The notes beneath the pieces are model-generated. The model was not told the origin of the DNA and ran no database searches. It saw only the letters and a program-made list of their open reading frames with translations. The translations under genes and the position numbers were made by a program. From a virus: 24,880 nt of DNA. Positions 283-24,880 of this stretch are shown piece by piece; position 1 is the first letter of the stretch; every line of letters begins with the position of its first letter. The DNA lies in IMG/VR virus record IMGVR_UViG_3300022937_000136, positions 1-24,880 of that record. One strand, given 5' to 3'.

Positions 283-290
283 TATTTATC
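283..290 (-). promoter_or_regulatory. T4-type late promoter octamer GATAAATA
   Basis: On the minus strand this reads GATAAATA, one base from the T4 late consensus TATAAATA. It lies 27 bases before the ATG at 255. The TAA in the octamer is also the stop codon of the 419-aa gene (288-286). T4-type late promoters need only this -10-like box, recognised by the phage late sigma factor and clamp. Confidence 0.6.
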
Positions 291-1545
291 TAATAAACAT
301 ATAGTTCATTCTTTTTCCTGGTCTATATCTATTACCCAAGTTGCTATTGCAGTGAGTTCCAATTGTTCTATCAGAAGAATAACCATATGATTGTTGAGAT
401 CCATCCGCAGAATACCATCCCCAGTTAACTGCAGGAGAGTTGTGACCAGTCAAGCTTCCTGTTTGGTTTGTTCCAGAACAGTATACACTACCTTCCCTAG
501 AACGGCAAGAGAACATATGATTACCGTCAAGAAAATCTTGTCTTAAAACTCTACCTGAGCTATCACTGTTACTATCAACGTTAGATGAGTTAGTCATAAT
601 ATAAGATTCTGATGGATTAGTAGCATCATCTCCTAGTTTATAGAAAACACCACCGCCATATGTAGCAATATCTGCTGTAACTTGATAATCTTGATATGTA
701 TTACCGCTACCTTGACCACTATTGGTAATGTTAGGACCTTCTGTATTCCATAACTGTGATGGATCTGCCTGCATATTTTTGTGGAACTGTGTAAACACAG
801 GGGAGATATTTAAGGATGTCGAAGATCCAGCGGATACACTAGCTCCAGTATATCCAGTAGATGAGAAGTTATGACCAGTATAATCTGCTCTTGTGACATT
901 TGATACTCCATTTGTGCAGCAGTGCATCATCCATCTACCGCCATAATTTCCAATGTTTCTATTAATATTAATCAAATCTCTAACATCTAGAGTTTCATAT
1001 AAACTACCATTTGGACTTAATGTACTCAATCCAGTATTGTTTGTATAAGTTCTTCCACCATCACGAGCTAATGAGAACAAACTACTTGTTGCTTGATCTC
1101 TATCATATTTAATTCCTAAGGTCCATCCACCTCCTTGAGTGGTCATATCACACCAAACCTGAAAAGCAGATGCTCCACTATTTGATCCAGAAAATTTTGC
1201 TGGGTTTAACCAAAGTGGACCTTCCAGTGCTTGAACATCTGCTGTTGTTCCGCCACTAGCAATGATATCAACTAAAATTGCCAAAGCAGAACTGTTAGCA
1301 TTCGCGGCACTAGTTCCATCCAAAACAGCAGCTGTACTTTGAACTTTACGCCAACCACTTCCGTCCCACAAGAGTAATATATTTTCATCTGAATCAAAAA
1401 TCATTAACCCAGCATCAGTAGATCCTAGGTTTGATGGGTAGTTGCCTTCGCCAGCAAATCCGACAAACCTAACCCCAACGGTTGTGCTAACCCTACCAAC
1501 ATCAATATTGCCAGAGTTGATTTGTGTTACGTTCAGTTCGGACAT
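286..1545 (-). CDS. Tail adhesin with C-terminal fibrinogen-like (FReD) domain
   Basis: This 419-aa protein is probably a virion-bound receptor-binding protein. Residues 1-70 form an N-terminal module that starts MSELNVTQI and includes GLMIFDSDENILLLWDGSGW. The same pattern opens the 588- and 321-aa proteins here and is likely the attachment part. From about residue 106 the protein resembles a fibrinogen-related domain: GPLWLNP, then AFQVWCDMTTQGGGWTL, the usual FReD opening with its first Cys, and it ends RPGKRMNYMFIR. The C-terminal part is rich in Ser, Asn, Gly and Tyr and has several Cys (WMMHCC, MFSCRS, THCNSN), unusual for a fibre made in the cytoplasm. The gene has its own late octamer at 1574-1581 and no strong ribosome-binding site. 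The FReD call is by hallmark motifs only; ligand specificity cannot be read. Confidence 0.85.
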   Translation of the reverse strand: MSELNVTQINSGNIDVGRVSTTVGVRFVGFAGEGNYPSNLGSTDAGLMIFDSDENILLLWDGSGWRKVQSTAAVLDGTSAANANSSALAILVDIIASGGTTADVQALEGPLWLNPAKFSGSNSGASAFQVWCDMTTQGGGWTLGIKYDRDQATSSLFSLARDGGRTYTNNTGLSTLSPNGSLYETLDVRDLININRNIGNYGGRWMMHCCTNGVSNVTRADYTGHNFSSTGYTGASVSAGSSTSLNISPVFTQFHKNMQADPSQLWNTEGPNITNSGQGSGNTYQDYQVTADIATYGGGVFYKLGDDATNPSESYIMTNSSNVDSNSDSSGRVLRQDFLDGNHMFSCRSREGSVYCSGTNQTGSLTGHNSPAVNWGWYSADGSQQSYGYSSDRTIGTHCNSNLGNRYRPGKRMNYMFIR

Positions 1546-1573
1546 TCTTCGATCTACTTATACTAAGCAAAAC

Positions 1574-1581
1574 TATTTATC
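1574..1581 (-). promoter_or_regulatory. T4-type late promoter octamer GATAAATA
   Basis: The minus strand reads GATAAATA, 28 bases upstream of the ATG of the 419-aa adhesin. The stop codon of the preceding oxygenase-like gene (1579-1577, TAA) lies inside the octamer, as in the copy at 283-290. The spacing suits a late promoter serving the adhesin. Confidence 0.65.
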
Positions 1582-2266
1582 CAGTAAAAGAAAAAGTCAT
1601 TCTCTTATGTTTTTTGAAAGTGTTTGCTTCTATAAAAGAATTGTGGAATAAGGAACCTTCGTAGAGATTTAGAGTATTAAACTCTACTGGAGACAAATGA
1701 TACATTTCATATCTATCATCTTCTTTTGGTGGAGCAAAATTATCTAACCTCAGATCAGGAGACGTAAATCCATACCTATGCTTTCTATACATACAACTAT
1801 TTGGGAAAAAACATTCTTCTCCAGTTTCTTTAAGTCTATAGAAAGCAGTTCCAGTTTCTCCATCAATTTCATCTTTGTAATTTAAAAACAAATTTCCAGC
1901 AATAGATTTTTGATCACAATGTGGATTGTTTGATTGTTTATAAACTTTTTTGTTCCCATCAATATACTGAAATGAAAAGTTGAAGTAGTCAACTTTATAT
2001 CCATAGTGTTCCCACATCAGAAATCTTAAACAATCTTCCATCATTTCAAAATTATACGTCAAATATAATTGAACCCCTGGATAAAATCCTCTTGGTGATT
2101 TTCCTTCTTTGATAGTTTCTTGTGTTGGTATGGACAAAAGAAACTCTCTAAAACTTTCTGGATATTTTAGGAAATTTTTTATACTAATTAATTTGTTTTT
2201 GTAATTACCAATATCAGTAACTAACAATTCAAAATTTCTATTTACCTCAAAAATACTATCGTTCAT
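1577..2266 (-). CDS. DUF6445-like protein, putative 2OG-Fe(II) oxygenase fold
   Basis: The start is set at ATG 2266, giving 229 aa. This ATG overlaps the upstream stop as ATGA and is preceded by GGAGGT at 3-4 bases, a strong ribosome-binding site; an ATG 18 bases further upstream is less likely. The protein shows the order I associate with DUF6445: GFYPGVQ (60-66), NNPHCD with H116 and D118, NLFLNY, then GETGTAFYRLKETG (137-150) and GSLFHNSF with H208, followed by KRMTFSF with R222. H116/D118/H208 would be the iron triad and R222 the 2-oxoglutarate contact. It is the last of five oxygenase-like genes in a row. Its substrate is unknown; a beta-jelly-roll protein without catalysis is possible. 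Confidence 0.72.
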   Translation of the reverse strand: MNDSIFEVNRNFELLVTDIGNYKNKLISIKNFLKYPESFREFLLSIPTQETIKEGKSPRGFYPGVQLYLTYNFEMMEDCLRFLMWEHYGYKVDYFNFSFQYIDGNKKVYKQSNNPHCDQKSIAGNLFLNYKDEIDGETGTAFYRLKETGEECFFPNSCMYRKHRYGFTSPDLRLDNFAPPKEDDRYEMYHLSPVEFNTLNLYEGSLFHNSFIEANTFKKHKRMTFSFTG

Positions 2267-2901
2267 TTTACCTCCAGAATACAACTAGGATTGCCACTCT
2301 TATTAAATTTTGGATTGATTTTTCCAGTGGGCATTGCATTGAAAGCAATAGACCATCGATCATAAACATCCTGGTGAGGAATTGTTCCATGCTCTATCCA
2401 GCTTGGGAATAAAACCAATTTACCTTCTTCTGCCGCAAATATAGATTGACGAATGTTTTCTTTACTATTGACTTCTAAACTATTATAAGTTCTATTAGTA
2501 ACTGGATCTAAAAAATATGTTGGAGATCCATTTGTAAGATAGTATATACCACTGATATAACTCATTTTATGAGTGTGGTTTTGTTGGTTACTTGCCGTAT
2601 ACTTTGGATATTTGTTTGCCCAACAAATGGTAATATCAAAACCATCACAGTCAAAATCTAGATTTTTTCTATGAGTTTCTAAACAGTCCTTTATAAAAGA
2701 TATAACTGGTAGATATTCTATTTTTTTATGAAGGTAATGATGTGTCTGATAGCACCTTGTCGTTGGATGTACATCATTACTGCCATTATTAATAAACTCT
2801 TCCTCTTCAAGAATTTTAATTATTTTTTGATTTATAGATTTATCTTCTATTTCATATTCATATAAATTGATTGGAAAAATTTGATATGATTTGCAATTCA
2901 T
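2263..2901 (-). CDS. Putative 2OG-Fe(II) oxygenase (2OG-FeII_Oxy_5-like)
   Basis: This 212-aa protein has the layout of the 2OG-FeII_Oxy_5 group found in marine phages and bacteria. Features include CWANKYPKY (93-101), the histidine pair NHTHKM (H109, H111), SGIYYLTNG (117-125), TYFLDPVTN (128-136), and a strong C-terminal block LVLFPSWIEHGTIPH with H171 then DRWSIAFNAMP with R182. H171 and R182 fit the distal metal His and the 2-oxoglutarate Arg. The usual HxD is HxH here (H109-T-H111), so the acidic ligand is not obvious. Start codon 2901 follows the previous gene with a 4-base ATGA overlap (2898-2901), implying translational coupling. The DNA is very AT-rich: 2821-2880 has 9 G/C in 60 bases. 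Substrate unknown. Confidence 0.78.
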   Translation of the reverse strand: MNCKSYQIFPINLYEYEIEDKSINQKIIKILEEEEFINNGSNDVHPTTRCYQTHHYLHKKIEYLPVISFIKDCLETHRKNLDFDCDGFDITICWANKYPKYTASNQQNHTHKMSYISGIYYLTNGSPTYFLDPVTNRTYNSLEVNSKENIRQSIFAAEEGKLVLFPSWIEHGTIPHQDVYDRWSIAFNAMPTGKINPKFNKSGNPSCILEVK

Positions 2902-3467
2902 AGTCTATCGTATGCATACTCTAAGTAATGTCCATCTGCTCTAACAAAATGAAAGAACACTTGGTGGTAATAAGATTTTTTAGATCCAACTAATGTCTGT
3001 CTCCAATGCTCTATATTCATACCCTTGTAAATTATAGCATCTCCAGAATCTGTTGGAATTCCATGAATGTCTTCGCCAACTTTAAAAAATAATGGCCAGT
3101 CATATTCCAAGTTAGTGCTAATATTCAAAGATACACTTATCTCACATGAGGGTCTATCTATGTGTGGTTTCAAATCACTGCCACGAAAATAAAATCTATC
3201 ATAGTAATATGTTGGATATAATTTTTCTCCAATTATTTTTTCTACCTTAGATTTGCATTCGTAATAAAGTGATTTATATTTGGGGTAATTGTATCTAGAG
3301 GAGCAGTTTGAAACAGATCCATATTCAATATCACCTTGACCATATTCGATAATTTTATTATCGACATACTTTATAAATTTTTTTTCTTTTGGTGGGTCTT
3401 CTATGAAGTTAGATACATCTAAAAAGTTTTTCTCATACATAAGACCCCAATTACTATTCACCGCCAT
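2898..3467 (-). CDS. Putative 2OG-Fe(II) oxygenase with HxD...H motif
   Basis: This is a 189-aa protein. The double-stranded beta-helix signature is clear: YYYDRFYFRG (87-96), KPHIDRPSCEISVSLNI with metal residues H102 and D104, WPLFFKVG (124-131), SGDAIIYKGMNIEHWR with distal H154, and YYHQVFFHFVRADG (167-179). It lacks an Arg exactly like that of its neighbours in the last strand, so the 2-oxoglutarate contact is uncertain. I recall very similar blocks in cyanophage proteins annotated as 2OG-Fe(II) oxygenases. The ATG at 3467 overlaps the upstream gene by 10 bases and has GAGGG six bases before it. A GTG two codons in, overlapping the upstream stop as GTGA, is a weaker alternative. It sits in a coupled run, which suggests co-expression with its neighbours. 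Confidence 0.82.
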   Translation of the reverse strand: MAVNSNWGLMYEKNFLDVSNFIEDPPKEKKFIKYVDNKIIEYGQGDIEYGSVSNCSSRYNYPKYKSLYYECKSKVEKIIGEKLYPTYYYDRFYFRGSDLKPHIDRPSCEISVSLNISTNLEYDWPLFFKVGEDIHGIPTDSGDAIIYKGMNIEHWRQTLVGSKKSYYHQVFFHFVRADGHYLEYAYDRL

Positions 3468-4015
3468 GCTGGACCCTCAACCCATCCTACTAAAGATTTT
3501 CTGCAACCTGATTTAACTTTCCTAACTCTATGTCGCAATCTACTGTCAAATACAATTAAAGAACCGCGAGACTTAGGAGCAAAATAAGAAATATTGTCGT
3601 CACTTAAAAATTGAAGTTCTCCTCCAGAATATTCATCTGGTGATGACAACTGCAAACTAAAGGAAAGCTTCCTCATGTAATCTGATTTTACGGCAAGGGA
3701 AGTATCTACGTGCCAGTTGTAATACTCTCCAGAAGAATATGATGTGTATTGTATTTCTTTGTCTCTAAACGAACAGATATCATAATTGAAATTTTGTTCA
3801 TTTGCTTTCAAAATGTAGTGATAACAAAAACCTGATATCCAGTGTTCATTTGTAATCCAAGAACACATACTTCTTCTAATGCTTTCATTTGGGTCATCAT
3901 CAGAACTAACTAAAGATTGTTCTAATTTTTTCTCAAAAGTTTCTTTCTCTTTTAAAAAACAATCAACTACATCTAGGGGAAGCTGTGTTTTGTACCATAA
4001 TAACTGATATGCCAT
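3458..4015 (-). CDS. PKHD/prolyl-4-hydroxylase-like 2OG-Fe(II) oxygenase
   Basis: From the ATG at 4015 the protein is 185 aa; a TTG 15 bases upstream would extend it but overlaps the previous gene. The signature is complete. YNWHVDTS gives H102 and D104, RKLSFSLQLSSPDEYSGGEL is the typical strand before the core loop, and SLIVFDSRLRHRV gives H162. GCRKSLVGWVEGPAWR gives R172 for 2-oxoglutarate and the characteristic GWVEGP ending of the PKHD-type group. That ending and the usual length make it the most confident oxygenase of the run. PKHD-type enzymes include prolyl hydroxylases, so hydroxylation of Pro, or of another side chain in a phage protein, is plausible but not shown. It begins one base after the stop of the 197-aa gene. 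Confidence 0.87.
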   Translation of the reverse strand: MAYQLLWYKTQLPLDVVDCFLKEKETFEKKLEQSLVSSDDDPNESIRRSMCSWITNEHWISGFCYHYILKANEQNFNYDICSFRDKEIQYTSYSSGEYYNWHVDTSLAVKSDYMRKLSFSLQLSSPDEYSGGELQFLSDDNISYFAPKSRGSLIVFDSRLRHRVRKVKSGCRKSLVGWVEGPAWR

Positions 4016-4016
4016 G

Positions 4017-4610
4017 TTAAGAAAACTCAAACCATCCTGTAATAATATACTTTGTTTGTGTAGGACTTACTTCCGACCGATGAAAATGTGTCCAGAAAGG
4101 TGGCCAAATAACCATCTTTCCTTTCTCTGCTTTAAAAGTTTTATCTTGAAAATAGAATTCGGTTCCTCCTTTATCAGTCACGGTATTTAAGTATAGCATC
4201 CATACTAATACCCTGGCAGAAAACTCCCGTGATCCACTCTCACAATGCCACTTCTTAAATCCCTGTCCTGGATAAAATCTTTGAATGTTTGCGTTTTGCT
4301 CAATCTGCCAAGCACGAAGACTATCAATTCCAATTTTATTTCCATCGGAAAATTTTTCTTTGTACTCATCAACAGAAGTTCCTATTGCTTTTACCAAAGA
4401 CGATAATACACTACTCCATTCGGTGTCATTAAATAGATCTTCATTTATAAGTATCTCAGTATCTTCTTTGATACTGGTGTCGATACGGTTATTAGCGCCA
4501 TTTGATGTTTGACCTTTATAATGAAGGTCTGTTCTTTTTTCAAATAAAGAAATAATACTATCGCAATCATCACCAGACATTGCATCTGGGATTTCCATCA
4601 TAAAATCCAT
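4017..4610 (-). CDS. 2OG-Fe(II) oxygenase with HxE metal motif
   Basis: This 197-aa protein carries NIQRFYPGQGFKKWHCESG (108-126) with H122 and E124, so the usual HxD is HxE. RVLVWMLYLNTVTDKGGTEF (133-152) follows, then GKMVIWPPFWTHFHRSE with H175 and H177, and finally TKYIITGWFEFS with K187 where many relatives have Arg or Lys. This matches the phage group in which the distal ligand lies in W-T-H-x-H and the chain ends YIITGW. The start ATG at 4610 lies three bases after the stop of the 114-aa gene; no clear Shine-Dalgarno is seen, so coupling is likely. It is the first of five consecutive oxygenase-like genes. The HxE variant is known among active enzymes of the superfamily, so activity is plausible; the substrate is unknown. 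Confidence 0.85.
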   Translation of the reverse strand: MDFMMEIPDAMSGDDCDSIISLFEKRTDLHYKGQTSNGANNRIDTSIKEDTEILINEDLFNDTEWSSVLSSLVKAIGTSVDEYKEKFSDGNKIGIDSLRAWQIEQNANIQRFYPGQGFKKWHCESGSREFSARVLVWMLYLNTVTDKGGTEFYFQDKTFKAEKGKMVIWPPFWTHFHRSEVSPTQTKYIITGWFEFS

Positions 4611-4613
4611 AAC

Positions 4614-4958
4614 TTAATCAATCATACATTCTGGACAATCATTTACTATTAACTCTACCCACTTCTGTAAATCTTCATCCCAAAAATGTTTTCCCTCGGG
4701 TTCATTTACTGGGGCATACCACTCCAAAGTTTTTGGATTTAACTTCCAACTTGGAAATGGTTGAGCATCATAAAATTTTGCTTTTTCTGGGTTATACAAC
4801 CCTCCTATTCTAGCACGACCAGATCCTTCTGTGATCTTTATCCACATTCCAGTCATGTTTGGTGTCTGTAAATACATTGCCATTTTATTAAAATCGGCAT
4901 CTTCACAAACAATAATGTTTTCAACAATCAAATCTTTTGACACATATGCATATTTCAT
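4614..4958 (-). CDS. Trp-rich phage protein, possibly fibre/tail assembly related
   Basis: This 114-aa protein has no assigned function. It has a small N-terminal fold (MKYAYVSKDLIVENIIVC), then a pattern common in phage proteins encoded next to tail fibres: ARIGGLYNPEKAKFY, PFPSWKLNPKTLEWYAPV and HFWDEDLQKWVEL (residues about 48-105). Five Trp are spaced through 114 residues. This W-x-L-N...W-x-A-P-V...W-D-E...W module recurs in many tailed phages, alone or attached to tail proteins. It starts one base after the stop of the 588-aa adhesin, so translation is probably coupled, which fits a partner or assembly factor of that adhesin. It ends in CPECMID; the two close Cys do not form an obvious metal site alone. 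Confidence 0.8.
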   Translation of the reverse strand: MKYAYVSKDLIVENIIVCEDADFNKMAMYLQTPNMTGMWIKITEGSGRARIGGLYNPEKAKFYDAQPFPSWKLNPKTLEWYAPVNEPEGKHFWDEDLQKWVELIVNDCPECMID

Positions 4959-4959
4959 T

Positions 4960-6726
4960 TTATCTTACCCATGTAGTATAACCTTGACAATCGGTGACGC
5001 TATTAGAACTATTGTACCATCCTTCGTAACTTCCTTCTGTAGATCCATGACCTAAGTAAGTTCCGCTGTTTGGATCACCATACTGACCTTGTGTTCCTAC
5101 GCCACCAACTGTTGATTGGTTTGCGTTGGCATTATAACTGTTATCTGCATGATAATCTTTCTGAACACCATCAACTGCAAAATATGCTGCACTTCCCGAT
5201 AGACTACTGTTTCCAGAAATATTAACAACAGATCTTGGTTGAACATCTAGCAATCTTTGTTTTCCTCCACCACAAACCAACCATTCTACAATAATATGTT
5301 CTCCTAGATTTGTCCAAGTATATGTTCCATTTGTAGAACCACGACCAAATCCAACTACTCTGGCATTTTGCCAAGTCAAACTATTTACCATACTTCCAAT
5401 GATATAGTCGTTATTTGGACTTGGACTTCCTAGTTCTCCAGTTCTATCAAGATGATATGATGAATTATTTCTTCCAGTACCACTAGCAAATGTAGATGAT
5501 GATGCGTTACTAGATGCAATCAGCATCCATCCTCCGCCAGACATATCGCACCATACCTGCTGCGCTCCACCCGAATAACCTTCTGGTTTAATCCAATAAA
5601 GACCGTCAGTTGCTGATGGATTTTCTTGGAGAATTTGATATGCATTAACTGCTGGATTTGTCGAGGATGATCCAATAGTTGGATCTGGAACATAGTCTGC
5701 AGTATATCTAAGAATTACAATGCCATCTCCACCATCTCCAGCTTTGGCTCTATAACTGTTGTTATATCCAGCGCCGCCACCACCGCCGCCGTAACCATTA
5801 CCACCATCAAAACCTTGACCTGATGAATAGTTAACTAGATTATAAGAACCACTATTTCCTCCACCACCTTTTCCGCCAATAATAAGACCATCATTTCTAC
5901 AAAGTGCTCCCGCACCACCGCCACCATAATATTGTGGAACACCATCAATATCATACACAAGACCATCTCCACCCTTGCCACCAACGTTAGCAGTTCCATC
6001 AACACCTTGCTCACCAGCGCCGCCACCACCGCCACCGCCCCATTGGGGGGATGAATTATTTCCTGCACCGCCGCCACTTCCAAATCCACCACTTGCTGAT
6101 GATGGTTGTAGACCAGTTGATCTAGGACCAGAGTATGGGTGACCACCGCCGCCACCAGATCCTCCATTAAGTCCTCTACCGCCATCAACGGCACCACCAG
6201 CGCCGCCACCACCGCCCCCTAAAGCGGTGTATCCGTAGAATGTAGTATTTCCACCAGTGTCTCCTTGCCTGTCAGTATTTTGATAACCGCTTCCTCCAGA
6301 ACCGATAACCACTGGGTAGGTTCCTTCTGTCATTTCAACCGAAGGTAGGTAGATAACTCCACCAGCACCACCACCACCATTACTGCAGTTTCCATCAGCA
6401 GCGCCGCCACCACCGCCGCCACCAACCAGGAGAACTTCCATGGTTTTTCCTTCAGAAACATTTCTGACGACAAATGATGTAGAAGACTTAAATTTATGGA
6501 TTGTGTAATTTCCAAAATTGTATTTTGTTCCACCCGACGCTGATACTGTTCCAGTGTCGTCTAAAGATCTCCAGTTAGTCCCATCATAATACTTTACCTC
6601 TTTGGTAGTAGTATCATATGCTAGAAATCCCGTAGAAATATCTGTAGTTGGGAGTTGAGATGTAGTAAAAGCGGGAAGTTGAACCCCAACAGATGCATTT
6701 AACTTCCCTACGTTTAGTGTTGACAT
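4960..6726 (-). CDS. Glycine-rich tail adhesin with FReD-like C-terminus
   Basis: This 588-aa protein has three parts. Residues 1-60 are the MSTLNVGKL anchor-like module with GFLAYDTTTKEVKYYDGTNW. Residues about 65-100 (TKYNFGNYTIHKF...MEVLLVGGGGGGG) open a Gly-rich domain of the type found in phage adhesins. It continues to about residue 335 with dense GGGG runs and ends GDGGDGIVILRYTADY; such stretches can pack as polyglycine-II sandwiches, as described for the S16 adhesin gp38. Residues about 356-588 resemble a fibrinogen-like domain (GLYWIKPEGYSGGAQQVWCD, then SGGGWMLIA) ending YTTWVR. A receptor-binding role at the fibre or baseplate tip is inferred. A variant late octamer lies at 6760-6767. 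The 114-aa gene and five oxygenase-like genes follow almost without gaps. Confidence 0.88.
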   Translation of the reverse strand: MSTLNVGKLNASVGVQLPAFTTSQLPTTDISTGFLAYDTTTKEVKYYDGTNWRSLDDTGTVSASGGTKYNFGNYTIHKFKSSTSFVVRNVSEGKTMEVLLVGGGGGGGAADGNCSNGGGGAGGVIYLPSVEMTEGTYPVVIGSGGSGYQNTDRQGDTGGNTTFYGYTALGGGGGGAGGAVDGGRGLNGGSGGGGGHPYSGPRSTGLQPSSASGGFGSGGGAGNNSSPQWGGGGGGGAGEQGVDGTANVGGKGGDGLVYDIDGVPQYYGGGGAGALCRNDGLIIGGKGGGGNSGSYNLVNYSSGQGFDGGNGYGGGGGGAGYNNSYRAKAGDGGDGIVILRYTADYVPDPTIGSSSTNPAVNAYQILQENPSATDGLYWIKPEGYSGGAQQVWCDMSGGGWMLIASSNASSSTFASGTGRNNSSYHLDRTGELGSPSPNNDYIIGSMVNSLTWQNARVVGFGRGSTNGTYTWTNLGEHIIVEWLVCGGGKQRLLDVQPRSVVNISGNSSLSGSAAYFAVDGVQKDYHADNSYNANANQSTVGGVGTQGQYGDPNSGTYLGHGSTEGSYEGWYNSSNSVTDCQGYTTWVR

Positions 6727-6759
6727 ATTATGATTGGGACTAGAACTACTGTTACTTAG

Positions 6760-6767
6760 TATTTAGT
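6760..6767 (-). promoter_or_regulatory. Variant late promoter box ACTAAATA
   Basis: The minus strand reads ACTAAATA, two bases from the T4 late consensus TATAAATA. It lies 33 bases upstream of the 588-aa adhesin ATG, in one of the few intergenic gaps. No other xATAAATA box is seen between here and 1574-1581, so this is the best candidate for driving the adhesin, the 114-aa gene and the five oxygenase-like genes. Confidence 0.4.
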
Positions 6768-6769
6768 CT

Positions 6770-7018
6770 TCAAATTTCAACCTCTTCGATTGTAATCTGA
6801 TCGATATTTAAACAACAAAGTTTTTTGTGTTCAATCATATCAGCAATATCGTATTGCTCTACTGGCAGATAGTATTCATTTGCCATAACTTTTATAATTT
6901 CTTTTATAACTAATGAATTTCCATTTCGCCATTCAAAGATATAGTTGAATGACTTGTCTCTATCCATCACTCTTTTGTTTTTTACGATCCTTAGAGTGTC
7001 GCAGTCTTTCTTAATCAT
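6770..7018 (-). CDS. Small hypothetical protein between two adhesin genes
   Basis: I place the start at ATG 7018, giving 82 aa. This ATG overlaps the stop of the 321-aa adhesin as ATGA, and GGAGG lies 12 bases before it, inside the last codons of that gene. A start 30 bases further upstream would overlap the adhesin out of frame and lacks such support. The product is charged, starting MIKKDCDTLRIVKNKRV, with no signal peptide, transmembrane segment or motif I recognise. FNYIFEWRNG and a helical stretch around LVIKEIIKVMANEYY suggest a small mixed alpha/beta fold, and there are two adjacent Cys (LCCLN) near the end. Its coupling to the adhesin and the exclusively structural context suggest a fibre-related accessory, but that is inference. 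Confidence 0.65.
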   Translation of the reverse strand: MIKKDCDTLRIVKNKRVMDRDKSFNYIFEWRNGNSLVIKEIIKVMANEYYLPVEQYDIADMIEHKKLCCLNIDQITIEEVEI

Positions 7019-7980
7019 TTTACGTATAAACCTCCATATTGGTGCCAATCACCACCAGAACCAGTCCAGAAAGTTGCTGGCTGATAACCAGATCCATTTC
7101 CACCCCAGAAATTTCCAGACCAGCAAGCACCATACCACCATGGTGCTCTGTTGTATAAGTTGGCGCAGTTAGAACCGTATACGTCCTGGTCTCTATCAGT
7201 AGTGGTGAAATTATAATTGTTAGCAATATGGTAAGTCCACATGCCAGGGTCTGGAGAACCTAGTTCTGTATTTAATCCAGATTCTCCTACCCAATCAAAG
7301 TTTGTTCCCCATCCAGTCCAATTCCACCTAGCTCTTTTTGTGTGTGATCCAATGGTGCCCAAAGGAACCTGAGAACTAGCAACATATAAGACAACACTTC
7401 TACCAAGGTTATTTGCAGATGCAATGGCATCCCATGCACGTAAACCTGCCCAAGCAGAGTATGTTTTTGGATCACCAGAACCCCATGTGGAAGTTGCATA
7501 CCAATCATAAGATTCTGCAGCTTGTGAATAGTTTAAAGATTGTAAATTCACACCGTATGGATGTGATCCAACCATAACCCATCCACCACCATCATATGTA
7601 TTATCAACCCAAACTTGTTTTGGTTGGTTGTTGATTTTCATCCAATACCAACCTGTTGGAGCGGATGGATTTGCTTCAAGAATTTCAGTAGATCTATCTA
7701 CTGCTTTGTCCTGAGATAATCCATCATTTTTAGTTTCTCCAATCCCAACCCAACCATTTTCAGTTCCAGTATATACTTCTGCTTGTGATTCATCAGTATT
7801 AAAACCAATAGATCCAACTACAGGATTTGATGGTCTTGTGTTAGTAGTCCAAGTGGGAACATGTAAAGTTCCATTTGCAACTAGTTCTCCATATACCTCG
7901 AAATTGTGACCGTCTGGAATTCTTACGGTGTTGTTGTAGGCAGCAATGCCTTTAATATCGTGAACATTTAAGATACTCAT
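7015..7980 (-). CDS. Tail adhesin with calcium-site-bearing fibrinogen-like domain
   Basis: This 321-aa protein has the clearest FReD of the three. Residues 1-80 are the MSILNVHDI anchor-like module with GSIGFNTDESQAEVYTGTENGW. The FReD opens at about residue 95 with TGWYWMKI, KQVWVDN and DGGGWVMVG. It later shows FTTTDRDQD with D262, D264 and D266, matching the FReD calcium loop. C272-A and C286 fit the C-terminal disulfide, and APWWYGACWSGNFWGG matches the WWY..C...N-x-G ligand pocket of ficolin and fibrinogen. The first conserved Cys is Val here (VWVDN), unlike the VWCD of the other two adhesins. Glycan or acetyl-group recognition is known for animal FReDs; here a host surface glycan is only a guess. 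The ATG at 7980 abuts the stop of the giant fibre, with TGGAG ten bases upstream of the stop. Confidence 0.9.
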   Translation of the reverse strand: MSILNVHDIKGIAAYNNTVRIPDGHNFEVYGELVANGTLHVPTWTTNTRPSNPVVGSIGFNTDESQAEVYTGTENGWVGIGETKNDGLSQDKAVDRSTEILEANPSAPTGWYWMKINNQPKQVWVDNTYDGGGWVMVGSHPYGVNLQSLNYSQAAESYDWYATSTWGSGDPKTYSAWAGLRAWDAIASANNLGRSVVLYVASSQVPLGTIGSHTKRARWNWTGWGTNFDWVGESGLNTELGSPDPGMWTYHIANNYNFTTTDRDQDVYGSNCANLYNRAPWWYGACWSGNFWGGNGSGYQPATFWTGSGGDWHQYGGLYVK

Positions 7981-10900
7981 TTATACAATGCTCCAGGACG
8001 CTCCATTTTCAATAGTAATCGTGATGTTATTATTTATCGTGATTGGACCAGCTGACATAGCATTAACATTTGCTGGAACATCAACGTCTTCGGAAATAGT
8101 ATTTCTATTACATTTGAAGATGCCGTATGTATCCAACCACTGTTTGTCGCCATTTGCATATAACTCCTCAGTTAGATTTGCAGTTCCTTCAACATCAAGA
8201 CCATACAGAGGATCTCTATTTGAACTAAATCCAATACCAACTCTAGATGCTCTATAGATATCTGTGCCATTTGGAGATTCTGTCCATCTAGAAGTAACAA
8301 ACTCAGAATTGTTTTGATATAGAGTTCCATTAAAGTTTACATCACCTTCAATATTAAGTTGATAATTTCTGTTGACGTTAGTTTCTGGATCAGTTCCCGA
8401 AGTTTGGAATGTGTTGATAGAAACTCTATTTGTAGAACCATCAATGGAGAAAGCTGGTGTCGAATTCCATGTAGTTCCACCACCCGCAGTAGATGCCTGA
8501 ATAGTGAATAGATTGTTATCAACAATCTGATTGCCAACTTGGAAGTTTCTGTAGGAAGAAGAACCTAAGAATTGAATTGGAGCTCCAGAGTTGTCGGCAG
8601 CATTATCAACGCGGAGAGTACCGCGAACTCTACCATCTCCAGCAACATCTAGTGGATATGCTGGATCATCAGTTTGAATGCCTAGTCTATCAGTAATATA
8701 AACTTCAGCAGGAGACGCTGTGGATCCAAACTTGACACCCATGTTAGATTCTGTGCTATCAAAGATGAAGTATGATGCTCTTGAAGCATTTGCAATTGTC
8801 GCATCAGCGTGATAGAAACTGAGGAATCCTTTTTGTCCGTAGGTGCCTATTTGATCACTGAATGTAATCTTAGCACCAACAGCATTTGTTAATGAATAGA
8901 TACCGAGACCAGAATCTCCACGAACGTCTAAAGTATATGCGGGTGAGACGCCAGCATTAATACCAACCTCATTGGAAGAAGCATCAACAAACAGAACGCC
9001 ACTATCAACATTCAGGTCATCGACCATGGTAACAACACCAGTTAGTGTTGATGTGCCCTGAACACTGAAGTTTGATGCAGCACCAGTGATTGTCAATGTG
9101 CCAGTCATCGTATCACCAGCTCTCAATACGTTATTGGATGCTGTTCCTGTTAGGTTTGCTGTAATTGTTCCTGCAGAGAAATTGCCAGAAGCATCGCGGA
9201 TAACACCAGTTGAAACAACATTTGCCGACTGGAATGTGATATTTCCAGCGTTCCAAATTGTGTTGCCATTGATGCTAAATCCGTTAGCATTTGCAACCTG
9301 CGCGTTCAGCGTTCCAGAACCATCAGTAGCATTACCACCAGAAGCAATAATTGCTGCGTTGTAGTTTGCTGCTAACTGAGAAGAGTTGAAGTATATACCA
9401 GGAGAAGATTGAACTCCATCTGCTCTTCCCAATCTGAGGTTTGCAGTTCCACTATCACTTTCCAATTCAGCAACTGTAATAGTGTTGCTGTCCATGATTG
9501 TGAAGTCTTGGAACTCCTCTCTATTGGAAGCAGTACCAATTGTTAGAGCACCAATAAAGTTACCAGTAGTTAGTCTACCTTCAATGATGGTATAATCATT
9601 GAAGTTATCAACGGTGTCATTGTTCGTGATAATATTGTCAATTGCAATTTGACCCGTTGCCTGGGAGTTAGCATTATAAAGGTTTACTGAATTACCAGGA
9701 ACAAATGGTGATGTTGTTAAAAGTCTTCCAGAAATATAAATTTGATATTTTGGATCTCCGTTAAAAGCTTTAATTTGTAGACTATCTCTTACAGCATGAG
9801 CACTAATGAAGTCTGGAAGTCTATTATCAGATAACGTTCCGTAGTTAATATTCAGTGCATTCTGATACCAAGATCCTTGCTTATTATCCAGTCTATCCGC
9901 GTCAAGACCAGAATCAATACCATCGTTAAGTGAGCTCCAAACTCTTGCCCAAGATCCAAATGATGTAACTCCAGATCCAGAACCACGGATATACATGCTA
10001 TCATCATTGGCGAAAGCAAGTTGTCTAACGCCACCTGCGGATGCGTCTAGACCAGAAGCACCATTCCTGAAAGTAACAACTAAATGTTTGGTTCCGCCGC
10101 CAGCGCCAACAGATGGATATGCTGTATCCAATCCATTTGAATTATTGTTTACAGTGTTGGAAACAATACCTGCTTGGAAAGAGTTTGGCGATGGGTTTGA
10201 AGTTGGGTTATTCTCACCTGTTAATAGTCTTAGTGTATTTGCGGACTGACCAGAAATTGCAATGTTGTATGTACCTGCTAGGCGATCAGTTGGCAGCGTT
10301 CCTGAACTTTGATTGCTGGAATTTAGATAGAATGAACCTTGAGCGCCGTCCAAAAGGTCAGCATCAAGACCACTATCTGGACCAGTCTTGAGTTCAATAG
10401 ATCCATTACCAGCAGTTCCAATATTGAACTGCGATTTCTTAAATCTAGAAACACCAATTGTTCCATAGAGATCGGAAGAAATTGTTAGATTGGTAACTCT
10501 CTGAACGTCAAGAGATACGTTAGCATATTGTCTGTTAACAGTAGACAGTTTTGCTTCTAAAACCATACCAGAACCAGTTCCCAGTTCTAGAGGTTCTACT
10601 GTAATTGAGAAGTCTGAGTTGTATCCAGAACCACCATCTGTTACGGAAATTTCTGTAATTGTGTTGTTTGAAACAACGATGTTCGCTCTCAGACCTGTTC
10701 CAGTTCCTCCTTGAAGTTCAACATCAAAGTATTGACCGTTTGTAAAACCAACACCACCGTTTGAGATAATGATGTCATCAATAAATCCACCTTGGGTGTA
10801 TGAAGATTCAAACACCATCGGTGAAGCACCACGCTCAAATTCGACAATTGTGCCAGCAGCAATTGTTTGAGTAATTGGGTTGTTTAATGAAATCGTTGTT

Positions 10901-13900
10901 AGTCCAGCAGCAGTAATAACACCAGTAATATTTGTATTTGCTTGAATACCAGCAACATTGTTTAAAACCTCGTGTCCAATAAGAACATCTGAGTTAGTCG
11001 CAAAAATTAACTGACTGGAACCACTATTTGCTTGACTGTATAACTTATCGAAGTATCTGTTTTCAGCACCCTTGATAGATTGAACAGCAAGCGCCCAGTT
11101 TTGATCTCCTCTTAAGAAAGTAAACGAACTTGCAGCACCACCAGTAGCAAGACGATCCGTTTCAATAACACCAGAAGTAATGTCAGTTGCGGCAATCTGA
11201 TTAGATGATAAAGATACCCAGTTATTGCTATCGGAAGCAGAAGTATTTTGAACTCTGTTAACAGCAACAGTTACAGCTGGTACATCGCTACTATCAATAT
11301 TATCATTTTCTGTGAGGGAAATTCTATTTACGATATCTCCATACAATCTACTTTCTAGTAGAGCAACACCAGTCGCTTGTGTTCCACCGCCAGCTGGTGC
11401 GGAGAAAGTTACAGTTGGTGTTGTTGTATATCCAAGACCACCCTTATAATTATTAAAGGTGACGATAGTTACAGTAACAACTTCGCCATTGGCAATAGTA
11501 CATGTTGCGGCGGCTTGAACCGCACCAAGACCAGGATTACCACCAGAGATTGTAATAGTTGGTGGTTGAGTATATCCAGAACCCCCATCTGTAATATTGA
11601 TCTGATAAACTACACCTTCTCTGTATTCGGTTGCTTGAATTCTACCGCCACTTACACTACCAGTAAAGATGTCTCCAATGGTAAATTGTAGTGTTGGATC
11701 AACAGCAAATCCAAGGAAGAGACTATCTAGATCGTTGTTTAGGATGAACGAGGTAGAAGTATCTTGTTGAATTGCAATATCGCCAGCAAGTGCTCCTTCT
11801 AAGGAAAGTCTTTCTGTCTGATTAGCAACAGTATAGACACTAAATGGTCTTAATGCTGGAATTTGGTCAATAGAAATCTTACCACTGTCAGTAAGTTCAA
11901 CCAGTGCTCTAGGAACAGCGTTCGTGGAGTATGGTTTGTTGATGTAAGGTCCAAGGTTGTTGGTGATATAATCCTTAACTGCCTTCTGAGTAGGTAGTTT
12001 AGAATCAGTGGAGTTAGCACCACCTAGTGTGTTGGATGCGTCGAAACCAGTAACAACAACATCGCCACCCTTCAGTTTCAGGAATTCAACTTCCGAGATG
12101 GTAACCGTTCCAGTAAAGGTAATAGCACCAGTTCTGTTTTCAATTCTAGCAAATGTACCAACTTTGAAGTCACCTAGTTCGTCAGTACCTGAGACATACA
12201 CACGACCATAGTCTTCAGAGACTTGCTCATTTGCCTCAATCTTAGTACCACCGTTTTCTGGTAGTGCAAGATAATTTGTACCAGAACCTGCAAATTCCCA
12301 AGTATGGGACGAAGAGTTAACAATAGAAGGTCTGTGTAGATTGATAGTTGATCCTACAAGACTTCCAACTGAAATTGGGTTGCCAGTTGCAACTGATGTA
12401 AGGTCCATGGCACCACCAGTGCCATCATCGATTGTCAATTGAGCTGAGAAAGGAGGTCCAACAGTTACAGAACCAACTGCATCAATGAAGTATTCTGTTC
12501 CATCAGCAGCAGTAGTGTTTGTTGTTCCATCAATCTTAACAACATAGTGCTCTAGGGGTTCTCTGCCAAGTCCATTGACTGTGAGAATAGTTCTTCCAGT
12601 TGGAGTTGACGAAACATTTGTAATAGTTCCAATGTCAAACTCATATGGATCTCTTCTGTATCCAATGCCTCTGAGAGCAAACTGACCGAAGTTGGTAGCG
12701 GAGTTAGTAATCGAACAATAACCACCACTTTCTGCTAGGACACCATCAGCACAGAAGATAACGAAGACCGAAACCAACTGAGTGTATCCATCTTCGATAA
12801 CCTTGTATCCCGTACCACCAAAGGAGACAATGGTGAATGCGGATGCAACCATCGACTTGCCCTGGTTGGGGAAAGTTGCTGTGCCGTCTAGTTCTAGACC
12901 AGGGAAAGGACAGTTAGGTTGCTTGACCTTAGAACCATCAACTAGAGCACCTCCACCGCCTAGGAAGGAGATAACAGAGGAGTTTTGAGTATATGGAGAT
13001 GCTTCAATGATTGGGTAATCATCATAGTCACCACGAATTGCCATCCTGATGTTGTTTTCATCATAGATGTATGAATCTGGATATGAGATGATTAATGAAG
13101 TATCATATAAAGTTCCTGTTGTGATCGTTGTTGCACCAGGAAGAATAGTTCCATCAAGAATATCTTCCAACAATCCCATTGAAGTGTCGATGGTGGAAGC
13201 AACGTTTGCACAAAGTGGATTGCTTCCATAAAGAAGAATATTCCAATCTTCAAATTGTGGAATTGGTGAAGACGTTGTTACTGGATCATAAATGAGTATA
13301 GTTCCGTCTGTTTTTGCGCTAACAAATGTATGCGCTACACCAGCAGCTGAACCTGCATTTGGAACGGTAACTGTGACAGTCGTGTTTCCGCCAGCAGAAG
13401 AAACATTTGTGATGGCATAACTTTTTCCAAAGTTAGAATCAAATCTACCAGGACTTGCCAAATCTCCGCCACCATTTGAGGCACAGTTAAATGTCAATGC
13501 TTCTTCAGTGAAAGCTAACCTGTCGCTCGTGGTAGGAGCAGTTGCAGGATCTGGGAATGTTACAGTTACAACTCCACTTGTAGAATCGTAAGTTGCATTT
13601 GTTGGAGTTACTGCATCAGCAGTTCCATCAGTCCAGTTACGAATTGCATTCTTTGCATATTCTGTAGTCCTTTGGAAAGCGTAGATTGTTTCATCTCTTT
13701 GTGCTTCAGGAATTCCTGTTAAAGCAGTACCAGTGAAATACGTTTCTGCGTTTGTTACAATTCCACTGTTGCCACCAAGAACAAGGTCTCTAATAAGTCC
13801 AGAAAGAATAAAGTTAATGTCTCTACGACATTTTCTTTGATTGACATCAGAGAGACCTAGTGATGGGAATTGAATTTCTGTATCAATCAGTGCTTGATCA

Positions 13901-22986: not shown

Positions 22987-23179
22987 TTTTGATTAACTCT
23001 CGCAGTAAGGTTTTGATCTCAGATACTTCATCCTTCAACATATTTATGTCATCTAACGCGGAATTCAAGCGTTTCATTTTACGGCGAGCTTCAATAGCAG
23101 AATCGTTGTAATTCAAGATGGCACCTGTGGTCTCGTCTCTAACAAGACCATCATGCCCTTCAACTTTGATATAAGACAT
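22973..23179 (-). CDS. Small conserved virion-cluster protein with coiled-coil tail
   Basis: This is a 68-aa protein. The N-terminal part MSYIKVEGHDGLVRDETTGAI is a pattern I recall from T4-like cyanophage proteins in the structural cluster, where its function is unassigned. Residues about 28-65 (IEARRKMKRLNSALDDI onward, then VSEIKTLLRELIKNAS) have heptad-like hydrophobic spacing and should form a coiled coil. The ATG at 23179 lies nine bases after the upstream stop and has no clear Shine-Dalgarno, so it may depend on coupling. The gene overlaps the 1785-aa gene by 14 bases. It could be a small oligomeric linker in the baseplate or fibre base. Confidence 0.82.
   Translation of the reverse strand: MSYIKVEGHDGLVRDETTGAILNYNDSAIEARRKMKRLNSALDDINMLKDEVSEIKTLLRELIKNASN
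23041..23048 (-). promoter_or_regulatory. Possible late promoter octamer CATAAATA inside the 68-aa gene
   Basis: The minus strand reads CATAAATA, 54 bases upstream of the 1785-aa gene ATG and within codons for DINM. It matches seven of eight late consensus bases. Its coding position and longer spacing make it weaker than those at 283 and 1574. Confidence 0.4.
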
Positions 23180-23188
23180 ACGCGGAAA

Positions 23189-24880
23189 TTAGAACGATGC
23201 TACTGCTCTGATATCTTGAACCTTAGGAGCGAATGCTGGGTCAACAGTCTTCATCACAATCTTGACAGCAAAAGAAGAGAACTCGGGGAGATCTGCAACG
23301 CTATACTTCAGTTCTTGATATGAAGATTGCTTCTCAACAGTTCCAGAAATGCTGTTCTCACTGGATGCAATCTCTAAATTGTCAGGACCTCCATCAGTGT
23401 TGAAGTATTCCCAATCAATATCTTCGAAGTTTTCTTGACTGGATGCCTTCTTAAATCTGTAGAGAACTCTGATGTTTGAGATATCCTTGATGTTAGCGGT
23501 AAGTCTTACATCAATGGATGTTCCAGGATTGCCAATTGCAACCTCCTTAGTTACATACTTAGCAACTGCGGAACTATTCTTAGAAGAATCTTCGGAAACA
23601 AAATCAATACCGTTGGAATATGTAATGCTTCCGACTTCCAGATAAGATGCTTCGACATCATCCTGAGACGCATACTTGACATAATCTCCAACACGGAAGA
23701 TGTCAGAAACTTGCTCAGAAGTCTGAGCATTTCTCGCAAATGCTACATTATCAATAATTCTTCCAGTGAAGTCATTATTAATTGGTTGAGTGTCGGTTCT
23801 TAGGATTAACTCTTGTGTTTTGTTATTCCAAAGAACTGCTTTACCAGTAATCTTATTGTCATATGTCTCAAGAATTACTGATGGGTTACGAGCAACAATA
23901 GTTGCACCATCAGCAATATCAAAGAATAGTTCAACAGGATTTGAATCTACGGTAACACTAGTGAGTGATGCTTGATTACCAAGTGAAACAGTTTCTCCGA
24001 TCTGGAAGAACTGTGCTGTCTTAACTCTTACATAAACAACAGAACCATTTACTCTAGCAATAGTTCCAGATGCTTTTGTAGTTACTCCCTTGATAGTTTG
24101 ACCTGCTTGGATTTCAGTTCCACCGTTTCCTGCAAGTTGGAATTGATAAACTGGGTAGAACTTGATAATTTGATCTCTTCTACCAAATCTATCTTCCTGA
24201 CCGCTTGCGTTTTCAACTCTGGAAGTAGATGTCTTAACAGATGCTGAAGATAAATCAATCAGTGGTGATAGATGTGAGACTGTAGAAGTCATCACCATTT
24301 TATATGTTAATGACTGATTTAAACTATTGAGGGTCTCATTAATCTCGGACGCGATTAACTTTTGATTGGTAAAGTATTGTGGTTCATTCAAGAAAGTTCT
24401 TTCGTAGTCTGTCTGAGAATATGAAGTATAATTTGTTGTTGCCGAATCAACAGGAACTACATTAGTAGTCTTGACATAATTTTCAAGTTTTGTTCCAGTG
24501 AATGAAAGGTAGTTGACTTGAGGATATAGAGTTTCAAACTTTCTATTATGTGATGCATAGACATTCGTTCCACCACCAAATGCATTACTAGAAGCGTTTG
24601 CAGTAGAAGTGATGTTGTATGTGTCAATACCACTGTTTGAAATCTTAAACAGGTTGCTGTTCAAGATGTCAGAGGTAACACCGCCTGTCTCTTGTGCAGT
24701 TCTGTAGAAGACATACGACTTACCAGATGTCTCAAATCCATGGTCTCTGTGTGAAACCTTAACGATAGCATTGTTATTCTTGAATAGTTTTGAGGTAGCG
24801 TTAGTGTTTGCACTAGCATTAGTTTCAAATGGATTGTAGTCAAGAAGTTCATAACCCAAGTTATCATTCTTAAGTAGAAG
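23189..24880 (-). CDS. Virion structural protein, C-terminal part (5' end outside window)
   Basis: The frame is open to the window edge: seven sense codons (LLLKNDN) precede the TTG at 24859, so the gene almost certainly starts outside and that TTG is not the start. About 563 residues are visible. They begin LGYELLDYNPFETN, include HRDHGFETSGKSYVFYRTAQ and a Ser/Thr/Asn-rich middle, then DRFGRRDQIIKFYPVYQFQL and beta-rich segments (IQAGQTIKGV, GETVSLGNQA), ending APKVQDIRAVASF. I recognise this as the end of a large cyanophage structural protein encoded near baseplate genes and upstream of fibre genes; its exact T4 counterpart is not clear to me. It is probably part of the baseplate periphery. 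The small 68-aa gene follows after nine bases. Confidence 0.8.
   Translation of the reverse strand, partial: LLLKNDNLGYELLDYNPFETNASANTNATSKLFKNNNAIVKVSHRDHGFETSGKSYVFYRTAQETGGVTSDILNSNLFKISNSGIDTYNITSTANASSNAFGGGTNVYASHNRKFETLYPQVNYLSFTGTKLENYVKTTNVVPVDSATTNYTSYSQTDYERTFLNEPQYFTNQKLIASEINETLNSLNQSLTYKMVMTSTVSHLSPLIDLSSASVKTSTSRVENASGQEDRFGRRDQIIKFYPVYQFQLAGNGGTEIQAGQTIKGVTTKASGTIARVNGSVVYVRVKTAQFFQIGETVSLGNQASLTSVTVDSNPVELFFDIADGATIVARNPSVILETYDNKITGKAVLWNNKTQELILRTDTQPINNDFTGRIIDNVAFARNAQTSEQVSDIFRVGDYVKYASQDDVEASYLEVGSITYSNGIDFVSEDSSKNSSAVAKYVTKEVAIGNPGTSIDVRLTANIKDISNIRVLYRFKKASSQENFEDIDWEYFNTDGGPDNLEIASSENSISGTVEKQSSYQELKYSVADLPEFSSFAVKIVMKTVDPAFAPKVQDIRAVASF

Follow-up and report, generated by a model that had tools for sequence, protein, structure and literature searches.

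Five divergent 2OG-Fe(II) oxygenase genes at the end of a predicted late adhesin unit in a marine T4-like phage

The stretch of DNA analyzed here (the window) is the entire viral record IMGVR_UViG_3300022937_000136 of 24,880 bases, and it carries five neighboring genes, denoted A, B, F, D, and U, that are predicted to encode 2-oxoglutarate (2OG)-Fe(II) oxygenases and that are embedded among adhesin genes. The window belongs to a marine T4-like phage related to S-WAM2. The host is probably Synechococcus, because the 556-amino acid (aa) VrlC-type structural protein of the window is 98.7% identical to its counterpart from Synechococcus phage S-WAM2. On the minus strand the gene for this protein is followed by those for two long fibers (1785 and 3032 aa), a 321-aa FReD adhesin, a 588-aa Gly-rich/FReD adhesin, a 114-aa protein, A, B, F, D, U, a 419-aa adhesin, and a 65-aa gene (c65). 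The features of the locus are summarized in Table 1.

A first-pass annotation had placed five adjacent oxygenase-like genes at positions 4610–1577. These genes were found to be real and their coordinates to be correct, apart from minor changes to the starts of the second and fifth genes: B begins with the ATG at 4015 (the listed start at 4030 is a TTG), and U with the ATG at 2266. The spacing is as tight as had been claimed, with a gap of 1 nucleotide (nt) between A and B, an overlap of 10 nt between B and F, and overlaps of 4 nt at both the F/D and D/U junctions. The array does lie between the 588-aa and 419-aa adhesins, but it is not in direct contact with the former, since the gene for the 114-aa protein intervenes. 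The GC content of the oxygenase genes is 0.29–0.35, compared with 0.39–0.44 for the adhesins; they are also more AT-rich than the phage backbone, with the GC content dropping toward the end of the array.

Table 1. Coordinates of the adhesin and oxygenase genes and of the late promoter motifs in the window.
Feature	Position	Strand	Remarks
Late promoter motif ATAAATA	8031..8037	(-)	57 nt before the 321-aa FReD adhesin
321-aa FReD-type adhesin	7015..7980	(-)	Fibrinogen_C above cut-off
Late promoter variant CTAAATA	6760..6766	(-)	40 nt before the 588-aa adhesin; the unit adhesin-s114-A-B-F-D-U is predicted to begin here
588-aa adhesin	4960..6726	(-)	Gly_rich_2 domain (PF21722) and FReD-like C-terminal part
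114-aa small gene between the 588-aa adhesin and A	4614..4958	(-)	phrog_7759, no assigned function
A: predicted 2OG-Fe(II) oxygenase	4017..4610	(-)	PF13640, phrog_61; H122-x-E124...H177, anchor K187
B: predicted PKHD-like 2OG-Fe(II) oxygenase	3458..4015	(-)	PF13640, phrog_61; H102-x-D104...H162, anchor R172
F: predicted prolyl-hydroxylase-like 2OG fold	2898..3467	(-)	phrog_2954, labeled ferrochelatase; H102-x-D104...H154
D: predicted 2OG-Fe(II) oxygenase	2263..2901	(-)	PF13759, phrog_81; H109-x-H111...H171, anchor R182
U: DUF6445, predicted lysyl/prolyl-hydroxylase-like fold	1577..2266	(-)	phrog_1644, labeled minor coat protein; H116-x-D118...H208, anchor R222
Late promoter motif ATAAATA	1574..1580	(-)	Overlaps the U stop codon, 35 nt before the 419-aa adhesin; the next late unit is predicted to begin here
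419-aa adhesin/fiber protein, downstream of U	286..1545	(-)	Gene call and profile searches
Exchanged cassette, adhesins and oxygenases	293..7980	(-)	From the long fiber gene to the conserved c65/gp13 junction; without a nucleotide match in S-WAM2

Three of the five proteins were assigned to the 2OG superfamily by Pfam profiles above the curated cut-offs: A and B match PF13640 with E-values of 5e-9 and 6e-15, respectively, and D matches PF13759 with an E-value of 2e-16. The sequence relatives of B include 3dkq (E-value of 5e-8) and PiuC (E-value of 0.002). U matches DUF6445 (PF20043) with an E-value of 3e-10 and 40.8 bits against a cut-off of 24; F has no match in Pfam and matches phrog_2954 with an E-value of 2e-55. 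The conservation of the active sites was counted over up to 40 relatives per family. The H-x-D motif was found in 41/41 sequences for each of B, F, and U, and H-x-H in 15/15 for D, while the A family contains H-x-E in 23 and H-x-D in 14 of 37 sequences. The full PKHD-type/prolyl-hydroxylase set of H-x-D...H...R is present in 41/41 sequences of the B family. The distal histidine is invariant in each of the five families, and an Arg or Lys at the usual anchor for 2OG was found in A, B, D, and U (Table 1). The metal residues are nearly invariant overall, and decayed or pseudo-enzymes are therefore ruled out. The differing metal motifs listed in the first-pass annotation are thus real and family-wide rather than marks of decay, but the H-x-H of the fourth gene, D, is the norm of its family and not an oddity.

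F and U were placed in the superfamily from their predicted folds. Both proteins were modeled with AlphaFold from alignments of viral relatives, with mean pLDDT (predicted local distance difference test) values of 91.1 and 91.3, respectively, and both models are double-stranded beta-helix (jelly-roll) folds. The best match to F in the PDB is the prolyl-4-hydroxylase from P. putida (Z of 15.3, 2.9 Å over 158 residues), and human PHD2 was also found. The solved structures among the matches listed for F are all 2OG oxygenases, with AlkB among the weaker ones. The best match to U is human OGFOD1 (Z of 14.7, 2.7 Å over 174 residues), followed by mimivirus L230 and the human LH3 lysyl hydroxylases; the same lysyl hydroxylases were returned, with weak E-values, by an independent profile search with U. 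The top matches of both proteins are mostly protein hydroxylases. The jelly-roll identity that had been proposed for the five proteins is borne out by these comparisons for F and U and by Pfam for A, B, and D, and the metal triads are complete. A role in the repair or modification of DNA or RNA, of the AlkB or TET type, has been proposed for genes of Syn9 (quoted in PMC2984593), and the weaker AlkB matches of F would agree with it. We regard this role as very unlikely here, since the better matches are protein hydroxylases and the genes are found in a predicted late adhesin unit, not beside genes for replication or repair.

The sequence similarity between any two of the five proteins is no higher than that of shuffled controls, and thus recent tandem duplication is ruled out. 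The five genes are predicted to encode five mutually unrecognizable 2OG-Fe(II) oxygenases with metal triads conserved within each family. The earlier suggestion that they were acquired separately holds in so far as none is a recent copy of another. The five genes did not, however, arrive independently in the phage of the window, because the order A-B-F-(2OG)-U is kept in a second lineage and B and F are adjacent in 47 of 56 cases.

The second lineage consists of contigs L055–L057, which represent one species, and L058. These keep the adhesin, the small gene, A, B, F, another oxygenase in place of D, and U. The identity to the window is 60–61% over 268 aa for the adhesin, 27–28% for the small gene, and 48–51%, 49–50%, 41–43%, and 52–55% for A, B, F, and U, respectively. 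The order adhesin-small gene-A-B-F-2OG-U-late promoter therefore recurs at 41–55% oxygenase identity. In L057, a 577-aa protein of unassigned kind (1856–3589) is encoded just before the adhesin unit. Contig L059 carries relatives of U and D (50 and 45% identity, respectively) together with further oxygenases behind three adhesins, and an aminotransferase-class-III-like gene (11793–12995) adjoins this array. L003 is the same virus as the window (99.98% over 5,068 bases), and scans of viral contigs for close relatives of A or D alone returned almost solely this virus. Arrays of five or six oxygenases, F among them, also occur in two SAR11 phages, HTVC008M and Mosig, where they are located in the interval that separates a Gly_rich_2 adhesin from the neck genes. 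The search for the array beside Gly-rich or FReD adhesins in other phages, which had been suggested as a check, was thus successful, with the D position exchanged in L055–L058. The Gly_rich_2 domain (PF21722) of the 588-aa adhesin scores 82 bits against a cut-off of 24.3, and the same profile is above cut-off in L057, Mosig, HTVC008M, P-RSM4, and 023Pt_psg01. In Mosig (L325, 3651–4887), a heme oxygenase gene and a phycocyanobilin:ferredoxin-oxidoreductase-like gene separate the oxygenase array from the neck genes, and a tryptophan halogenase and a PhyH oxygenase gene are found between the terminase genes of HTVC008M (L050, 86–2045).

In public annotation (PHROGs and the literature), F (phrog_2954) is named a ferrochelatase. 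A 2OG oxygenase has been reported to be always beside a "ferrochelatase" in pelagiphages (PMC9599517), and phrog_2954 and phrog_61 have been counted as co-occurring seasonal auxiliary genes in marine viromes (PMC11561400). According to these labels F would supply heme or iron chemistry to the neighboring oxygenase, and the heme oxygenase and bilin reductase genes beside the Mosig array would suit such a function. This explanation is almost certainly incorrect. The ferrochelatase profile PF00762 did not match F or any of its 34 relatives, and it was matched nowhere in 10 phage records, while it was found in 8 of the 14 cellular genomes used as the control. Conversely, the phrog_2954 profile matched none of these 14 genomes. 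Ferrochelatase is ruled out for F by the profile and contradicted by the predicted 2OG oxygenase fold, and the published pair of a ferrochelatase and a 2OG oxygenase is a pair of predicted oxygenases. B is located directly upstream of F in the 47 of 56 cases noted above. The "ferrochelatase" of cyanophage ACG-2014f is a natural fusion of an F domain with a PF13640 domain, and because of this fusion we propose that B and F probably work together. Apart from this probable partnership, the earlier notion that the oxygenases act in sequence is without support.

The late promoter of S-PM2 is NATAAATA (PMC2984593). The window contains eight ATAAATA or CTAAATA motifs, all of which are on the coding strand. 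Six of them are located 31–61 nt before the two long fibers, the 321-, 588-, and 419-aa adhesins, and the 65-aa gene, and the other two precede a gene beyond the end of the window. No late motif was found before the 114-aa gene or any oxygenase gene of the window. The count of ATAAATA alone is no higher than chance, and thus the evidence lies in the strand and the positions of the motifs. In L057, CTAAATA is found 37 nt upstream of the orthologous adhesin, and the next motif is 28 nt upstream of the gene located after U. There are no late motifs on the opposite strand in L057, S-WAM2, Mosig, or L059. In S-WAM2 and Mosig the array is headed by a small gene with a late motif in front of it, and two late motifs are located within the array of L059. 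A scan for sigma-70-type promoters returned sites no more numerous than expected by chance. Since the motifs precede the 588- and 419-aa adhesins and no oxygenase gene, the oxygenases appear to form the end of a late unit that is headed by an adhesin. In both the window and L057, the adhesin, the small gene, and the oxygenases read as a single predicted late unit. Late co-expression with the adhesins, as had been assumed, is accordingly what the placement of the promoters predicts at these two loci. Among the 47 arrays that contain gene F, a late motif is within 80 nt of the first oxygenase gene in only 4, and none is found within 2.5 kb upstream in 22; because so few of these arrays have a nearby upstream motif, late read-through is well drawn only at the loci that were read by hand. 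It has been proposed that the 2OG oxygenases of cyanophages serve as auxiliary metabolic enzymes (PMC3037559), which would lower or redirect the 2-oxoglutarate of the host and thereby steer NtcA and the energy supply. The many 2OG genes per genome are in keeping with this proposal, but we consider it quite improbable for the array, since late expression with virion genes is predicted and the mere consumption of 2-oxoglutarate would not need five divergent active sites.

The nucleotide identity between the window and S-WAM2 is 92% over positions 22939–24880 and 77% over positions 1–292, but no nucleotide match was found for the interval with the adhesins and oxygenases (293–7980). The corresponding interval of S-WAM2 contains other fibers, a diverged DUF6445 gene, and one PF13759 oxygenase. 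The interval is unmatched while its flanks remain similar, and thus the set of oxygenases changes together with the adhesins. It is conceivable that the interval between the long fiber and gp13 simply gathers genes, and that oxygenases, which are common in marine phages, accumulate there without a functional tie to the adhesins. The oxygenases are indeed numerous and scattered in these genomes, the genes of the array are more AT-rich than the adhesins, and the fourth gene was swapped between lineages. We nevertheless consider such cargo improbable, because the A-B-F-2OG-U order and its place behind an orthologous adhesin are preserved at 41–55% oxygenase identity, similar arrays are found in SAR11 phages, and the link is specifically with Gly-rich adhesins.

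This link was determined from genes called from open frames and from oxygenases detected with profiles built from the families of the window itself, and for these reasons the counts are approximate. Adjacent pairs of 2OG genes numbered 30 in 11 whole phage records, where 8.9 were expected, and 12 in 8 further genomes chosen through VrlC, irrespective of the oxygenase genes, where 3.6 were expected. In 8 of 10 whole genomes, against 2.4 expected, a Gly-rich adhesin and an oxygenase were no more than four genes apart. These 10 genomes had been found through F or U, and therefore the test was repeated with the 8 genomes chosen through VrlC, of which 5 gave the same result (2.0 expected, p of 0.024). 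The general link between oxygenases and all fiber-like genes is only moderate, at 40 against 24.5 expected and, in the VrlC-chosen set, 24 against 16.7; the tighter link is with the Gly-rich adhesins.

The sequence-level anatomy, namely five families with intact metal sites, the placement of the late promoters, the conserved order, and the exchange with the adhesins, is an account in which we have high confidence. Adhesin or fiber modification is the simplest reading of this anatomy, because the set is late, linked to adhesins, swapped with adhesins, and similar to protein hydroxylases. According to this reading one predicted late unit would supply the phage with its Gly-rich/FReD adhesin, the small 114-aa protein, and all five of the divergent 2OG-Fe(II) oxygenases. 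The oxygenases would hydroxylate Pro, Lys, Asn, or Asp side chains of the adhesins or fibers in the infected cell while the virions assemble, with B and F as partners, and hydroxylation would alter the stability of the adhesin or its binding to the receptor. The oxygenase set would be exchanged between phages along with the adhesins. For such a host-recognition cassette, with its substrate included, we put the chances at just short of even; catalytic activity, hydroxylation, the adhesin or fiber substrate, and the benefit to the phage are all inferred. The broader statement that the marine phages infecting cyanobacteria and SAR11 possess exchangeable cassettes of adhesins and hydroxylases, with which they would hydroxylate their own receptor-binding proteins, is more tentative still. 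In the parts consulted of the report on S-SCSM1, no 2OG oxygenase is named among the proteins of the virion proteome (PMC9602691), which would be consistent with enzymes that do their work before the virions are released.

Several observations weigh against the modification of adhesins. Some Gly-rich adhesins are distant from any oxygenase (22–34 genes in Melnitz-2, 8 in S-WAM2, and 6 in MED4-213), the best Gly-rich adhesin of syn9 is 9 genes away, and many oxygenases in the same genomes are distant from any adhesin. The link with fiber-like genes is weaker than that with Gly-rich adhesins and is absent in single genomes such as syn9. There is no telling difference in amino acid composition between Gly-rich adhesins near to and far from oxygenases, and no fusion of an oxygenase with an adhesin or fiber was found in the whole genomes, in which the sole 2OG open reading frame longer than 300 aa is one of 328 aa in Melnitz. 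At the usual position of the 2OG anchor F has an invariant Y/Q/H in place of Arg or Lys; its invariant R91 and R156 may substitute for the anchor. Adjacency can also stem from a recombination hotspot. The scattered oxygenases and the Gly-rich adhesins without oxygenase neighbors argue against a universal rule that joins the two, and since oxygenases are also found elsewhere in the same phage genomes, not every one of them need act on an adhesin.

The carbamoyltransferase gene that adjoins the array of P-RSM4 also counts against adhesin modification, since it fits the tailoring of sugars or small molecules. The oxygenases could tailor a glycan, a lipid, or another small molecule of the host surface, or the receptor of a competing phage, late in infection. 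They could for example keep released virions off debris or block superinfection, and they would travel with the adhesins through the shared receptor, from which a pairing with adhesins is equally expected. The aminotransferase-like gene beside the array of L059 and the tryptophan halogenase beside the PhyH gene of HTVC008M are in agreement with this explanation. We judge it unlikely, because most of the solved structures closest in fold to F and U are protein hydroxylases, the array of the window is without a glycosyltransferase, and late expression allows little time to remodel a surface.

U is listed as a "minor coat protein" (phrog_1644), but it has an enzyme-like predicted fold and a conserved metal site. 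A DUF6445 gene is located directly behind the major capsid gene of S-H9-1 (L054, 9983–10693), which may explain the label. DUF6445-type genes occur as tandem doublets in many marine viral contigs (L089, L093, L097, L100, L115, L121, and others), and a literature search for DUF6445 returned no paper. Like the "minor coat protein" of phrog_1644, the label "DNA endonuclease V" of phrog_274 covers 2OG-type proteins. Members of phrog_274 and phrog_2297 with this label, such as denV of P-SSM7 (L328, 3720–4298), match PF13640 above cut-off; the label seems to be wrong for them, and they look like 2OG oxygenases. A search against Rfam gave no match.

Among the marine phage genes that lack an explanation, those for 2OG oxygenases are some of the more common, and they are usually assigned to auxiliary metabolism. 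Their location as the last genes of predicted late units headed by an adhesin, together with their exchange alongside the adhesins, points to the chemistry of virion proteins. If adhesins are indeed the substrates, then an oxygenase set inherited or swapped with the adhesin would add a chemical layer to host recognition. This long-open question becomes testable with existing mass-spectrometry data on virions. In addition, the phrog_2954 "ferrochelatase" that was treated as a seasonal auxiliary gene (PMC11561400) is corrected to a protein with a predicted 2OG-type oxygenase fold that travels with another oxygenase. The families of enzymes are already known, as is the fact that marine phages carry such genes in abundance. 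A limited literature search turned up no description of oxygenases at the distal end of a predicted late adhesin unit that is swapped along with its adhesins, nor of the phage "ferrochelatase" as an oxygenase partnered with another one. The same search returned nothing relevant on the hydroxylation of tail proteins or on a link between phage oxygenases and tail proteins.

The adhesin ahead of the array resembles Gly-rich tail adhesins such as gp38 of phage S16 in having a Gly-rich domain (PF21722); gp38 is not known to be accompanied by an oxygenase. A, B, and D belong to the 2OG oxygenases of marine T4-like phages (Kyanoviridae; PF13640, PF13759, and PF05721; phrog_61 and phrog_81), of which S-SCSM1 carries 24 genes (PMC9602691). 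In the Kyanoviridae these genes are usually listed as scattered auxiliary metabolic genes, whereas in the window five different ones are predicted to close a late unit headed by an adhesin. The published pair of a phage "ferrochelatase" and a 2OG oxygenase (PMC9599517 and PMC11561400) is the same pair as B and F of the window (phrog_61 and phrog_2954), but F is no ferrochelatase by profile and is predicted to fold as a second 2OG-type oxygenase. Mimivirus L230 and the prolyl hydroxylase of chlorella virus PBCV-1 are likewise encoded by viruses and are fold neighbors of U and F, respectively; they differ in that they come from eukaryotic viruses, have no close sequence relation to the proteins of the window, and act on collagen-like or peptide sequences. 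The arrays of HTVC008M and Mosig resemble that of the window in that five or six oxygenases, with the F and B types among them, are encoded side by side in the interval bounded by a Gly-rich adhesin and the neck genes. They differ in that most places are filled by other oxygenase subfamilies and that Mosig adds a heme oxygenase and a bilin reductase.

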